Position numbers and translations under genes: made by a program. Positions 19,352 through 50,988 of a DNA stretch of 64,000 bases are shown piece by piece (positions within the stretch are counted from its first letter, which is position 1; every line of letters starts with the position of its first letter). The stretch lies in assembly GCA_030605565.1 (NCBI GenBank), contig JAUWIB010000112.1, positions 1 to 64,000 of the forward strand, given 5' to 3'. The notes below the pieces were generated by a model, which saw only the letters and a list, made by a program, of their open reading frames with translations, was not told the origin of the DNA and ran no database searches. The stretch is from a bacterium. GTDB lineage: Bacteria > Zixibacteria > MSB-5A5 > GN15 > FEB-12.

Positions 19352-19411
19352 GGAGGTCTGCCGCCCCCCCCCCCTTGTGGTGGCTGAATCTTCAGACTCG
19401 GCCACAGGAAT

Positions 19412-45830: not shown

Positions 45831-47090
45831 CTACGTCTTGCGCTCTTTTTTCTTGGCGGCGGGGAAGAGAATGTTGTTCAGGATCAGACGATATCCCGGC
45901 GAATGTTTGTGCAGCACCAGTTCGGTCGGTGGATCATGGACCAGGTGGCGGTAATCCTCCGGGTCGTGACCGGACAGAAAGGTGAACGTGCCCCGCCCCA
46001 GGTTGCCGTGGATATAGCGCACTTCGTCAAAGTTGTCCGGTTGCCCCAGCACGACCACGAACTTCTTCAACAGCGACTTGCGAAAGCCGGTGGTCTGCCC
46101 GAGAAAGCCGTTGACAGTGTTGGTGTGGCATTGCGTCAGCATGGTCGGCACCGGGTCCAGTTTGGCGGCGAAGTCAAACAGGTAGAAATAGTCCTGACGT
46201 TCATCGAGAAACCGCACCAACCTGTCCGGATAGGTATCGATGTCGGAGTGGCTGTACACCATCGGATCGAACTCCAGTCGAAAATTCTCAAAGGCGAAGG
46301 TCCGTGTGAAATCAAGGGCTGCCTGAGCACCGGGATCGATCGGGTCGCCGTCGATCTGACGCGGCACGATATCCAACCCCTCGGCGGCCAGCGCGATATC
46401 GACTGTCTCCGGCGCGGAACACATCGAGAAAAAGAACCCACCGCGACGCACGTAATCGTACACCGTCCTGGCCACATCGAGTTTCATCTGAGAAACCTTA
46501 CTGTAGCCCAGCTTCCGAGCCATTTCCTCGTTGCTTCGCACTTCTGCCTGGTACCAAAGCTGATTGCGAAACGCGCCGTAGAACTTGCCGTACTGGCCGG
46601 TAAAATCCTCATGGTGACAGTGCAGCCAGTCGTACTCTTCAAGCGCCCCGGCCAACAGGTCTTCATCGTAGACGTTGTCGTACTTGATCTCGGCGTAGGT
46701 CAAGGCGAGCGTCACGGCATCGTCCCAAGGCTCATTGGTGGGGGGAGAATAAACGGCGATAACGGGCGCTTTCTCAAGCTCGACCCGCTCCATATTCTCA
46801 ACCTCGATCTGACGATAGATATCCGCGACCTGCCCGGACGTTATTCGCTGGGCCGAGACACCCATGAGCAAACACAGGTCACTCATCTCCGTAACGTCAT
46901 CGATCAGGAACGACCCCCCGCGATAGTTGAGCAACCACTCGGCATGGTAACCTTTGTCCAGGGCGCGAAAGCAAACGCCGTACGCCTTGAGATGATCGGT
47001 CTGACTGTCATCCATCGGGATAAACAGCGACGCCGCGTGCAACGGCGCGGTGAGGGCTATTGCGATTATGAATACGAGTGTTCTAATCAT
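45831..47090 (-). CDS. Conserved secreted protein; relatives in Bacteroidota are, from memory, often labelled asparagine synthetase B-like
   Basis: Signal peptide; LFIPMDDSQTDHLKAYGVCFRALDKGYHAEWLLNYRGGSFL; VTLALTYAEIKYDNVYDEDLL..YDWLHCHHEDFTGQYGKFYGAF. Confidence 0.75.
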   Translation of the reverse strand: MIRTLVFIIAIALTAPLHAASLFIPMDDSQTDHLKAYGVCFRALDKGYHAEWLLNYRGGSFLIDDVTEMSDLCLLMGVSAQRITSGQVADIYRQIEVENMERVELEKAPVIAVYSPPTNEPWDDAVTLALTYAEIKYDNVYDEDLLAGALEEYDWLHCHHEDFTGQYGKFYGAFRNQLWYQAEVRSNEEMARKLGYSKVSQMKLDVARTVYDYVRRGGFFFSMCSAPETVDIALAAEGLDIVPRQIDGDPIDPGAQAALDFTRTFAFENFRLEFDPMVYSHSDIDTYPDRLVRFLDERQDYFYLFDFAAKLDPVPTMLTQCHTNTVNGFLGQTTGFRKSLLKKFVVVLGQPDNFDEVRYIHGNLGRGTFTFLSGHDPEDYRHLVHDPPTELVLHKHSPGYRLILNNILFPAAKKKERKT

Positions 47091-47225
47091 CGTTCTATTT
47101 CGTATCTGACGCGCACAGCGCGAAGAACAGGCTCACCTGTGTCACCCTGAGCGTAGCCGAAGGGTCACAAACGTCTTTCTGGGTACGTCATACTTCGACT
47201 CCGCTCAGCATGACGGTGCGTGGGC

Positions 47226-47245
47226 GGCAGATGTCCACATCTGCC
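47226..47245. repeat. P2 palindrome (loop TCCA)
   Basis: GGCAGATGTCCACATCTGCC. Confidence 0.8.
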
Positions 47246-47323
47246 CCCTTATACACAAGACTCAAAGTAACGATTACGAGACTTTTGGCAACAGTGATTT
47301 TACGGGGGGGCGTGCAGTTCCGG

Positions 47324-47352
47324 TTGCGCGACACGCGACTTGTAGCTATATT
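47324..47352 (+). promoter_or_regulatory. Possible sigma70 promoter, TTGCGC-N17-TATATT
   Basis: 17-nt spacing, 60 nt upstream of the nuclease gene. Confidence 0.45.
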
Positions 47353-47411
47353 ACGTGCGGCTGTTAATTGAATAGTGGGAACCGAAGAACTAAAGGCGAG
47401 GAGGTAGGCAA

Positions 47412-48473
47412 ATGGATATTGAGGGCAAAACCATTTGGCAGTTGGCATGCGGTGACACTGATCGCAACTATGCCGATGTATGTCTAAAGTGGGACGTCAT
47501 CCTAAACGGACCAGGTTATGCTGGGAAATGGCACAAGTGCGAAGAGCAGCTTCGAAATGATGGTTGGACGTCTAAGAAGCTTTCAGACTTGAGACGATTC
47601 GCGGAAGATATAAAGGATGGCGACATCGTTGTTCTGCGTCTGGGTACAAAGAAAGTCATGGGGGTGGGTGTTGTAGTCGGTGGATATGATTGGAGCAATA
47701 TTTTCTCGGACGTAGATGGTTGGAATCTGCAGCATTTCCGACGAGTGAAATGGTATTGGAGGGGGGGGGACCAGGTCCCAGATTTAGCAACTTACGCAAT
47801 GAAGCTCGGTGATACGACACAGAAGCTGGATTCTAAGAAAGTAGAGGTAACCAACTGGCTCAGGGGTTTGAGCATTCCTCAGAGCGAGATTGACCGTGAC
47901 TTGGTCCAACTACCGCAGGAAAGCTCTAAACCTGTCACAATTGAACAGGTCTCCGAGTACTTGTTCGACAGCGGCGTGTCCAGCAACTCGGTTGAGACCC
48001 TTGTCACGGAAATCGACGAACTAGTGCAGATCGCCAAATGGTACAACAAAGAAAGAGAGAACAGCCCCTCAGAGTCGGAAACTGTCTCATACCTGGTGGT
48101 TCCTCTCCTACGGGCTCTCGGTTGGACACATCAGAAAATGGCGATTGAATGGCATAACGTCGATATCGCACTTTTCAGCAGTTTGCCGAGAAGCCCTGAG
48201 ACGACTAGTGTAGTGGTCGAGGCGAAGAAGAAGGGGAACTCATGTTTGATGGCGAAGTCGCAGGCTGAAACATACGCCAAAGATAAGACGAACTGTACCA
48301 GACTAATTGTGACGGACGGTCTCAGGTATGGAGTGTATGTACGAAACGGAGCCGAATTCGATTTGCTGGCGTATCTCAACCTCACTGCCATGAAGGACGG
48401 CTATCCGATCTACGATGATTGTAAAGGGGCCAAAGAAGCTCTTCAGGCTATGATGCCCGAATTCAATGGGTAA
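47412..48473 (+). CDS. PUA/EVE-like domain fused to an HsdR-N-like PD-(D/E)XK nuclease domain
   Basis: DIKDGDIVVLRLGTKKVMGVGVVVGGY...HFRRVKWYW; VDIALFSSL...SVVVEAKKKGNSCLMAKSQAETYAKDKTNCTRLIVTDGLRYGVY. Confidence 0.75.
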   Translation: MDIEGKTIWQLACGDTDRNYADVCLKWDVILNGPGYAGKWHKCEEQLRNDGWTSKKLSDLRRFAEDIKDGDIVVLRLGTKKVMGVGVVVGGYDWSNIFSDVDGWNLQHFRRVKWYWRGGDQVPDLATYAMKLGDTTQKLDSKKVEVTNWLRGLSIPQSEIDRDLVQLPQESSKPVTIEQVSEYLFDSGVSSNSVETLVTEIDELVQIAKWYNKERENSPSESETVSYLVVPLLRALGWTHQKMAIEWHNVDIALFSSLPRSPETTSVVVEAKKKGNSCLMAKSQAETYAKDKTNCTRLIVTDGLRYGVYVRNGAEFDLLAYLNLTAMKDGYPIYDDCKGAKEALQAMMPEFNG

Positions 48474-48607
48474 TCCTTGGAGCACCTGATGATGACTACC
48501 CGGACAGCCACTACTCCATCTTTTGACCTTTGCAAGAATCGTCCGTTCCATTTATATTGTGAGTAGCGCCGGTGAAATGTACTGTAGTATCAGCAAGGAA
48601 GTCACCA

Positions 48608-49154: not shown

Positions 49155-50000
49155 TCACTTCACCAGCGCTCGCAGCACGGCCAGGTTTTCGATGTCTTCG
49201 GCCAGGTCGTCCCCTTTGGGGGTCTCGAGAATCATCGGGATATTCTTCAGCCGCCGGTCGTTGACGATATTGCGGAACCCTTCCAGCCCGATAAACCCCT
49301 TGCCGATATGTTCGTGCCGATCCTTGCGTGAGTCGAATTCCTTCTTGCTGTCGTTCATGTGAATGACCTTAAGCAGGTCCAGACCGACCACATCATCAAA
49401 CTGTTTGATCGTTTTCTCGTACTCTTTTGGATCGGTTAGCGGATACCCGGCGGCGAAAATGTGGCACGTGTCCAGACAGACACCCATGTGCTCTTTGTTC
49501 TCCACGCCGTCGATCATTTGAGCCAGTTGCTCGAATCGGTAACCGAGATTGGAACCCTGTCCGGCCGTACTCTCCAAGAGCAGCGTGACCTGATTGTCAT
49601 CCAATTCATTAAACATACGGTTAATGTTTGCGATGATCCGCGCCATGCCGGTTTCTTCGCCGGAGCCGACATGCGATCCGGGGTGCATCACCAGATTGGG
49701 TATCTTGAGCAGCTTGCAGCACTCCATCTCCTCCCGAAGTGACAGACGCGACTTTTCGCCCAGAGCGTCATCGGGTGAAGCGATATTGATCAGATAACTA
49801 GTGTGCGATAACGCCACCGTAACACCGGTAGTCTCTATGGCCTCAAAGAACTTGTCAATTTCCTTTGGATCCAGTTTCCTCGCCCGCCACTGATTGTTGG
49901 ACTTGTTGAACATCTGGATCGTGTCACATGTGGCTTTCTTACCACGCTCGACTGCGTTGAAGATACCACCGGCGATAGATTCATGGGCGCCAAACAGCAT
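49155..50000 (-). CDS. nfo: Deoxyribonuclease IV (AP endonuclease)
   Basis: FGAHESIAGGIFNAVERGKKATCDTIQMF; NLVMHPGSHVGSGEE; GVCLDTCHIFAAGYPL; VIHMNDSKKEFDSRKDRHEHIGKGFIG. Confidence 0.95.
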   Translation of the reverse strand: MLFGAHESIAGGIFNAVERGKKATCDTIQMFNKSNNQWRARKLDPKEIDKFFEAIETTGVTVALSHTSYLINIASPDDALGEKSRLSLREEMECCKLLKIPNLVMHPGSHVGSGEETGMARIIANINRMFNELDDNQVTLLLESTAGQGSNLGYRFEQLAQMIDGVENKEHMGVCLDTCHIFAAGYPLTDPKEYEKTIKQFDDVVGLDLLKVIHMNDSKKEFDSRKDRHEHIGKGFIGLEGFRNIVNDRRLKNIPMILETPKGDDLAEDIENLAVLRALVK

Positions 50001-50160: not shown

Positions 50161-50988
50161 ATGGTTAAAGACGCAAGACAGACCAAAGCGAAATCGTCGA
50201 AGACTAGCCCCAGCCCAGAGCTCTTGTCCTACTGTGACGCCGCAGAACAGATTCTGAGGGATGTGAAAACGGCTCTCAAGTATAAGGAACTATCTGACAA
50301 AGCGAATAAAAAGGGAATCCTCCGAACTGAGTCTGCGACGCCTGACATCTCAATGTATGTCTCCCTGAGAGGTGAAATAAAGCGCCGGCAGCAGAGAAGC
50401 GAGGCACAACGCTTCAAATTCTTGGGGAATGGCATATTCACTCTGGTGGAGTTGATCACTGGAGCACCTGCCAAGAAAACAAAATCGGCGATAGAACAAG
50501 TGCGTGAATCGCGCGAGGAGGCTTACAAGGCGCTCTACAAGGCTCTTACGTCCGCAAACCAAGGGCCTAACTTCGAGACGATGGCTGCGGACCTTCTCAT
50601 AGCCATGGGATACGAGGATGTTGAAGTGATCGGTGGCCATGATGATCGTGGAGTGGACATTCTGTGTGAGAAGCGCGACGGGATCATGCGGGTGCGGTTT
50701 GCGATACAATGCAAGTGCGTACGGGAGAGTAAACAGGTGGGACCCAAAGATGTCAGCACTCTTAGAGATAATCTGTCAACCTATGGTTGCCAACAGGGCA
50801 TCATCGTCACGACAAGCGTTTTGAATGACGACGCAAAGAAAAAGGCCTCGGAAACAGGAAAAGATCGGATTCACTACATTGAGCGTAACGAGTTGTTTGA
50901 CCTGTTTGCGAGTAACGGGATTGGCCTGCGATCTGAGGAGGTGAGATTTTTCCAACTCGATACCTCACAGTACGACTTCCTCAACTGA
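50161..50988 (+). CDS. Mrr-like restriction endonuclease domain protein
   Basis: NFETMAADLLIAMGYEDVEVIGGHDDRGVDILCEKR...FAIQCKCV; QGIIVTTSVLNDDAKKKASE. Confidence 0.85.
   Translation: MVKDARQTKAKSSKTSPSPELLSYCDAAEQILRDVKTALKYKELSDKANKKGILRTESATPDISMYVSLRGEIKRRQQRSEAQRFKFLGNGIFTLVELITGAPAKKTKSAIEQVRESREEAYKALYKALTSANQGPNFETMAADLLIAMGYEDVEVIGGHDDRGVDILCEKRDGIMRVRFAIQCKCVRESKQVGPKDVSTLRDNLSTYGCQQGIIVTTSVLNDDAKKKASETGKDRIHYIERNELFDLFASNGIGLRSEEVRFFQLDTSQYDFLN

Follow-up and report, generated by a model that had tools for sequence, protein, structure and literature searches.

In the 64,000-nt stretch of DNA analysed here (the window), we identified a gene for a two-domain protein of 353 amino acids that is probably a solo, NTP-independent and modification-dependent (type IV-like) restriction DNA endonuclease. 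The protein combines an N-terminal reader domain of the PUA superfamily with a C-terminal PD-(D/E)XK nuclease domain of the HsdR-N type.

The gene and its surroundings

The gene and its neighbours are arranged as follows.

45831–47090, − strand: upstream neighbour
47412–48473, + strand: reader-nuclease fusion gene, intact ORF with ATG start, 353 amino acids
48602–49072: downstream neighbour, weak match to an ACT domain
49155–50000: downstream, endonuclease IV-like gene, identified by eye
50161–50988, + strand: separate Mrr-type nuclease gene

The reading frame is the one quoted in a preliminary description of this DNA, and we confirmed it from the sequence. Inspection of the flanking genes also agreed with the claim made there that no methylase or ATPase gene adjoins it. 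Compared with its homologue in L013, a relative of the same genus, the gene showed a dN/dS of ~0.28 (dN 0.077, dS 0.270), which indicates that it is under purifying selection.

The Mrr-type gene lies 1.7 kb downstream of the fusion gene, past the ACT-domain and endonuclease IV-like genes. Its product has a weak N-terminal HARE-HTH match and an Mrr_cat match (E 4.6e-23), and it also matches the PADLOC candidate system PDC-S02. Because a full-length homologue is absent from the six other genomes of the genus, this gene, too, seems to have been inserted singly, next to the endonuclease IV-like one.

A search of NCBIfam with the 353-aa protein gave no match. The family alignment comprises 64 full-length or nearly full-length members from related genomes, plasmid records, GTDB genomes and viral contigs. 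AlphaFold2, run on this alignment, modelled the whole protein with a mean pLDDT of 94.5 and a pTM of 0.91, and together with Foldseek it assigned the N-terminal part to the PUA superfamily and the C-terminal part to the PD-(D/E)XK nucleases.

47412–47861, + strand: PUA-superfamily (YTH/EVE-like) domain, residues 1–150 (domain-only model and Foldseek)
47862–48050, + strand: linker joining the two domains, with predicted helices 177–186 and 191–213 (DSSP on the model)
48054–48470, + strand: PD-(D/E)XK (HsdR-N-like) nuclease domain, residues ~215–353 (Pfam, Foldseek)

The N-terminal reader domain

Modelled by itself (mean pLDDT 91), the N-terminal domain has a PUA-like beta-barrel fold according to Foldseek. 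When the full model was searched against the PDB, YTH domains ranked first, followed by archaeal EVE-type proteins and then VcaM4I. With the N-terminal domain alone, the ranking was unchanged, and the best match was the YTH domain of YTHDF2 (E 3.9e-5, TM ~0.55–0.58). Further matches were PH1033 (TM 0.58), MJECL36, the EVE domain of VcaM4I and 2eve (TM 0.47), and TM ranged from ~0.47 to 0.59 over all matches listed for this domain.

Profile searches gave no corresponding signal. None of the 64 family members matched a YTH profile in Pfam, no YTH chain appeared in the PDB profile search, and the matches of the N-terminal domain in that search were at chance level only. Pfam EVE (PF01878) gave no match, and hhalign against 19 EVE domains returned a probability of 4%. 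Sequence profiles thus do not place the domain in YTH or EVE, so that the reader assignment rests on the predicted fold, at TM ~0.55. Of the earlier proposal of an EVE-like PUA reader, the PUA superfamily stood, with the refinement that YTH (m6A) is nearer by fold than canonical EVE, for which the profile comparison was not significant. In the model, the fold class of the reader is well supported, whereas the family inside this class is indicated only by the nearest fold.

Three aromatic positions deserve attention in this respect.

47490–47492, + strand: W27, candidate base-cage aromatic beside strand beta-2 (topology compared with YTHDF2 W432)
47691–47693, + strand: W94, candidate base-cage aromatic at the end of beta-4 (topology compared with YTHDF2 W486)
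47721–47723, + strand: W104, candidate cage position in the beta-4/beta-5 loop (topology compared with YTHDF2 W491)

The m6A cage of YTHDF2 is built from W432 (strand beta-2), W486 (beta-4/beta-5 loop) and W491 (PMC8981655). Mapped by topology and not by superposition, positions 27, 94 and 104 would match the places of this cage. Position 27, next to model strand 29–32, is W, H, Y or F in 62 of the 64 homologues (W33, H16, Y7, F6); position 94 carries one of these four residues in all 64, and W104 is invariant (64/64).

PADLOC matched residues 53–115 to the candidate PDC-S02 (E 3.1e-6), a partial match of ~60 N-terminal residues. The same N-terminal match was obtained for 42 of the 64 family members, with E up to 2.3e-9, and PDC-S02 did not match the 353-aa protein over its full length. 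The reader domain is also weakly similar (E 2.6e-4) to the segment that precedes the AAA domain in an McrB-like protein of L010, a genome of the same family. This protein is encoded by a 712-residue frame (L010:427-2562, − strand) with an McrB-like AAA domain and one more N-terminal region, which is uncharacterised.

The C-terminal nuclease domain

Pfam HSDR_N aligned to residues 250–307 with E 6.5e-4 and 20 bits, below the gathering cut-off of 25.1 bits. Across the family, it matched 18 of the 64 members at E up to 0.01, the best value being 2.1e-7. Foldseek matched the C-terminal half to 3h1t, an HsdR fragment, with a probability of 1.00. The catalytic residues lie in the following segment.

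48072–48275, + strand: catalytic signature E221/E223, E246, D251, E270-x-K272 and Q284-x3-Y288 (family alignment)

Among the 64 homologues, E221, E223, D251, E270, K272 and Y288 are invariant, while E246 and Q284 are conserved in at least 90% (Q284 in 63). The alignment indicates that a full PD-(D/E)XK residue set with a Q-x3-Y motif is present. The sub-threshold HSDR_N match, the fold match to 3h1t and the conserved catalytic residues together bear out the HsdR-N-like PD-(D/E)XK C-terminus that had been proposed before. Calcium-channel subunits appeared among the PDB profile matches of the nuclease domain (E ~0.003), over short stretches, and were treated as spurious.

A one-gene unit without recurring partners

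Comparison with a sister genome of the same genus, L131, delimited the segment that carries the gene.

47307–48530, + strand: 1.2-kb segment missing as a unit in L131, consisting of the gene plus ~100 nt on its 5′ and ~60 nt on its 3′ side

In L131, the equivalents of 47179–47306 and of 48531 onward are joined directly. The gene is therefore a 1.2-kb one-gene presence/absence unit with a clean empty site. The inserted gene starts directly after a cluster of short dispersed intergenic repeats (47140–47310), which includes the hairpin-like unit GGCAGATGTCCACATCTGCC and has 44 further matches in the genome. L013 has a further copy of this type of repeat, downstream of its gene.

We examined 131 genes flanking ~42 family members. 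No Pfam family was seen more than twice among them, and in an all-against-all BLAST of the flanking genes one neighbour family was common to one pair of loci. A conserved partner gene was rejected on this basis, and the lack of a recurring neighbour argues against any obligate partner, which bears out the single-chain, stand-alone character claimed in the preliminary description. As expected of a type IV enzyme, there is no cognate methyltransferase, since no neighbour of any kind recurs. Defence genes found among the neighbours, in an uncontrolled listing, were those for BREX BrxL, PglX, PglZ, a CBASS cyclase, SspD, ThsB/TIR, AbiH and a type II methyltransferase.

Distribution and divergence of the family

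In GTDB genomes, we found 72 homologous loci, which come from numerous bacterial phyla and, in one case, from a Lokiarchaeum. Plasmid records contained homologues in Cupriavidus metallidurans (53%) and Photobacterium. One homologue was found on a viral contig (L085) and none in phage records, which shows that phages are not the main carriers of the gene. Within the window's own phylum, 10 of 134 genomes gave a match. The family tree requires 25 changes of phylum label against a minimum of 14, and Zixibacteria occur in three places. From this tree-supported scattering, we conclude that the family is patchy across phyla and behaves as horizontally traded. Six copies contain an in-frame stop or a frameshift (L032, L045, L047, L072, L080 and L082), at differing sites; L045 is a broken copy in a complete Lokiarchaeum chromosome. 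Such copies are consistent with a defence gene that is acquired and later decays.

The window gene and its counterpart in L013 (L013:4546-5598) diverge unevenly. In the first 150 codons, dS is 0.55 and dN 0.133, compared with 0.11 and 0.037 in the rest of the gene and a dS of 0.24 in the flanking ACT gene. The step at about codon 152 coincides with the end of the reader domain and suggests, for this one pair, that the reader domain was recombined at the domain boundary. Across 134 pairs with more than 60% identity, both halves are equally conserved on average.

Comparison with known systems

EVE-HNH enzymes have been characterised (PMC7897488). Like the 353-aa protein, VcaM4I (PDB 6yex, PMC7897488) has an N-terminal PUA-superfamily reader and a C-terminal nuclease in one chain, without an NTPase or methylase. 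It differs in its HNH nuclease, where the protein studied here has PD-(D/E)XK, and in its canonical EVE reader with another pocket; the two have no detectable sequence relation.

A YTH-like restriction reader, with reported binding to 6mA DNA, is also found in YTH-McrB of Thermococcus gammatolerans and in EVE/YTH McrB fusions (PMC7641849, PMC12707154). Those systems need a motor GTPase, with McrC as a nuclease of its own, whereas here the reader is fused straight to the nuclease. The general architecture, a YTH-like domain plus a PD-(D/E)XK nuclease, was predicted by Bell et al. in 2020 from PSI-BLAST searches with an archaeal YTH domain; in its available part, that paper treats these fusions in general terms and does not describe an HsdR-N-type nuclease, or the spread or stand-alone status of the present family (PMC7641849).

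PDC-S02 resembles the 353-aa protein in the N-terminal stretch and in being a one-gene candidate defence system. Its C-terminal part appears Mrr-like, because the window's Mrr-type protein matches there, in contrast to the HsdR-like nuclease of the 353-aa protein, which is matched only in part. The HsdR N-terminal nuclease domain of type I systems (PDB 3h1t) has the same PD-(D/E)XK fold and motif set; the 353-aa protein differs in being without helicase, HsdM and HsdS and in using the nuclease domain alone behind a reader. We found no description of an HsdR-N-type reader-nuclease family in the literature searched, the scope of which lay outside subscription journals.

Prokaryotic YTH-like readers have so far been tied mostly to McrB GTPases or to predicted RNA-targeting systems. 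If our reading is correct, a one-gene YTH-like nuclease would be a simple system for studying on what basis folds of this kind discriminate modified adenine from modified cytosine and DNA from RNA, and a nuclease of this family could serve as a compact reagent for base-modification mapping.

Proposed mode of action and alternatives

We propose that, when DNA enters the cell, the YTH/EVE-type PUA domain would flip one of its modified bases into an aromatic pocket. The attached HsdR-N-type PD-(D/E)XK domain would then cleave close to that site, and it would probably do so as a dimer. A methylase would be dispensable, given that host DNA that is unmodified or carries other modifications would go unrecognised. 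The variation at position 27, the negative YTH and EVE profile searches and the methyltransferases of the host described below count against this proposal. The gene would act as horizontally traded one-gene defence cargo, with no regulatory role for its G9 tract, and the family is predicted to destroy, probably, phage DNA bearing modified bases.

As to the ligand, the nearest fold points to an N6-methyladenine-like base, with a cytosine modification as the next candidate by analogy with VcaM4I. The host genome codes for several N6/N4 and three C5 methyltransferases. A context-free reader of 6mA or 5mC would therefore attack the host's own DNA, so that recognition would have to be context-dependent or aimed at phage-type (hyper)modification. 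We dropped the ligand inference from these methyltransferases as uninformative, given that both N6/N4 and C5 enzymes are present.

One variant of the endonuclease reading, which does not exclude it, is that the reader, like that of VcaM4I, senses cytosine in a modified form (5mC, 5hmC or glucosylated 5hmC), and not 6mA. We regard it as possible but somewhat doubtful. The Foldseek matches include the EVE domain of VcaM4I, cytosine modification is what SRA and EVE domains sense in those stand-alone enzymes that have been characterised to date (PMC7897488), and prokaryotic YTH-like and EVE domains are hard to distinguish according to Bell et al. (PMC7641849). Against this stand the first rank of the YTH folds, the composition of the VcaM4I pocket (P24, W82 and Y130; PMC7897488) and the C5 methyltransferases of the host. 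An elaborated form of the preferred reading holds that this is a single-chain, NTP-free family in which a true YTH-type cage senses DNA adenine that is modified at N6 or hypermodified by a phage, cutting is of the HsdR type and specificity is changed by recombining the reader domain, as the divergence step in the closest pair (the window gene and L013) might suggest; taken as a whole, this combination is rather unlikely.

It is more unlikely still that the reader binds modified RNA (m6A or other) and that the nuclease is an RNA cutter or a suicide effector, along the lines put forward for CoCoNuTs with YTH-like domains. The nearest solved folds are indeed RNA m6A readers, and the YTH-like domains that also occur in CoCoNuTs belong to systems predicted to target RNA (PMC11090510). 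However, the nuclease is HsdR-like, from a lineage of DNA cutters, no partner of any kind recurs, and the 6mA DNA binding mentioned above was reported for archaeal YTH domains fused to McrB (PMC7641849, PMC12707154), all of which argues against this rival. The similarity of the nuclease domain to the HsdR N-terminus might also suggest that the protein is not self-sufficient and was left behind, as an orphan, by a type I restriction system or some other operon of several genes, but this is very improbable, as the same two-domain protein is full-length in more than 60 loci with no recurring partner and nothing in the genome matches HSDR_N over threshold.

The G9 tract

The predicted endonuclease had further been suggested to be phase-variable on account of a homopolymeric run.

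47761–47769, + strand: G9 tract in the codons TGG-AGG-GGG-GGG-GAC (W-R-G-G-D)

The nine consecutive G are present and in frame, and the claim that a one-base slip would remove the nuclease domain is correct in silico: G8 gives 124 and G10 gives 133 amino acids, both ending just past the N-terminal reader domain. The window contains four nine-G matches in two runs, more than most dinucleotide shuffles (mean 0.74; 4 of 100 shuffles reach 4). Nevertheless, that slippage toggles the nuclease domain of the same enzyme, as in contingency loci, is the least credible of the explanations considered here. A pattern search of the genome yielded 26 nine-G positions in 15 runs, fewer than the ~39 expected when the shuffle mean of the window is scaled to the 3.39-Mb genome, and other G9 runs lie in housekeeping-type ORFs (by eye, DnaJ-like and RluD-like). 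The tract does not convincingly exceed chance.

Runs of at least seven G or C were absent from the homologous ORFs examined, including that of the 86%-identical L013, which reads AAGGCGCTAGG at this position. The residues coded by the tract are not conserved in the 64-row alignment. The broken family copies have their lesions elsewhere and contain no G run of seven or more. Contingency tracts are usually longer than nine G, and no repeat tract is conserved or recurs among the homologous alleles, as would be expected of a contingency gene. With a tract private to one allele, non-conserved residues and no genome-wide enrichment of G9, phase variation becomes, on this comparative evidence, an unneeded hypothesis; the run looks like an accident of one sequence. 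A G9 tract in one metagenome-assembled allele, unsupported by relatives, gives no ground for calling the gene a phase-variable switch.

Two other kinds of homopolymeric run were seen. A C11 run occupies 19364–19374 of the window, inside a 141-aa ORF of doubtful status. Runs of eight or nine A occur at nt 130–197 of four homologues (L016, L020, L024 and L029), where they share one part of the reader domain, and are possibly lysine codons of AT-rich hosts.
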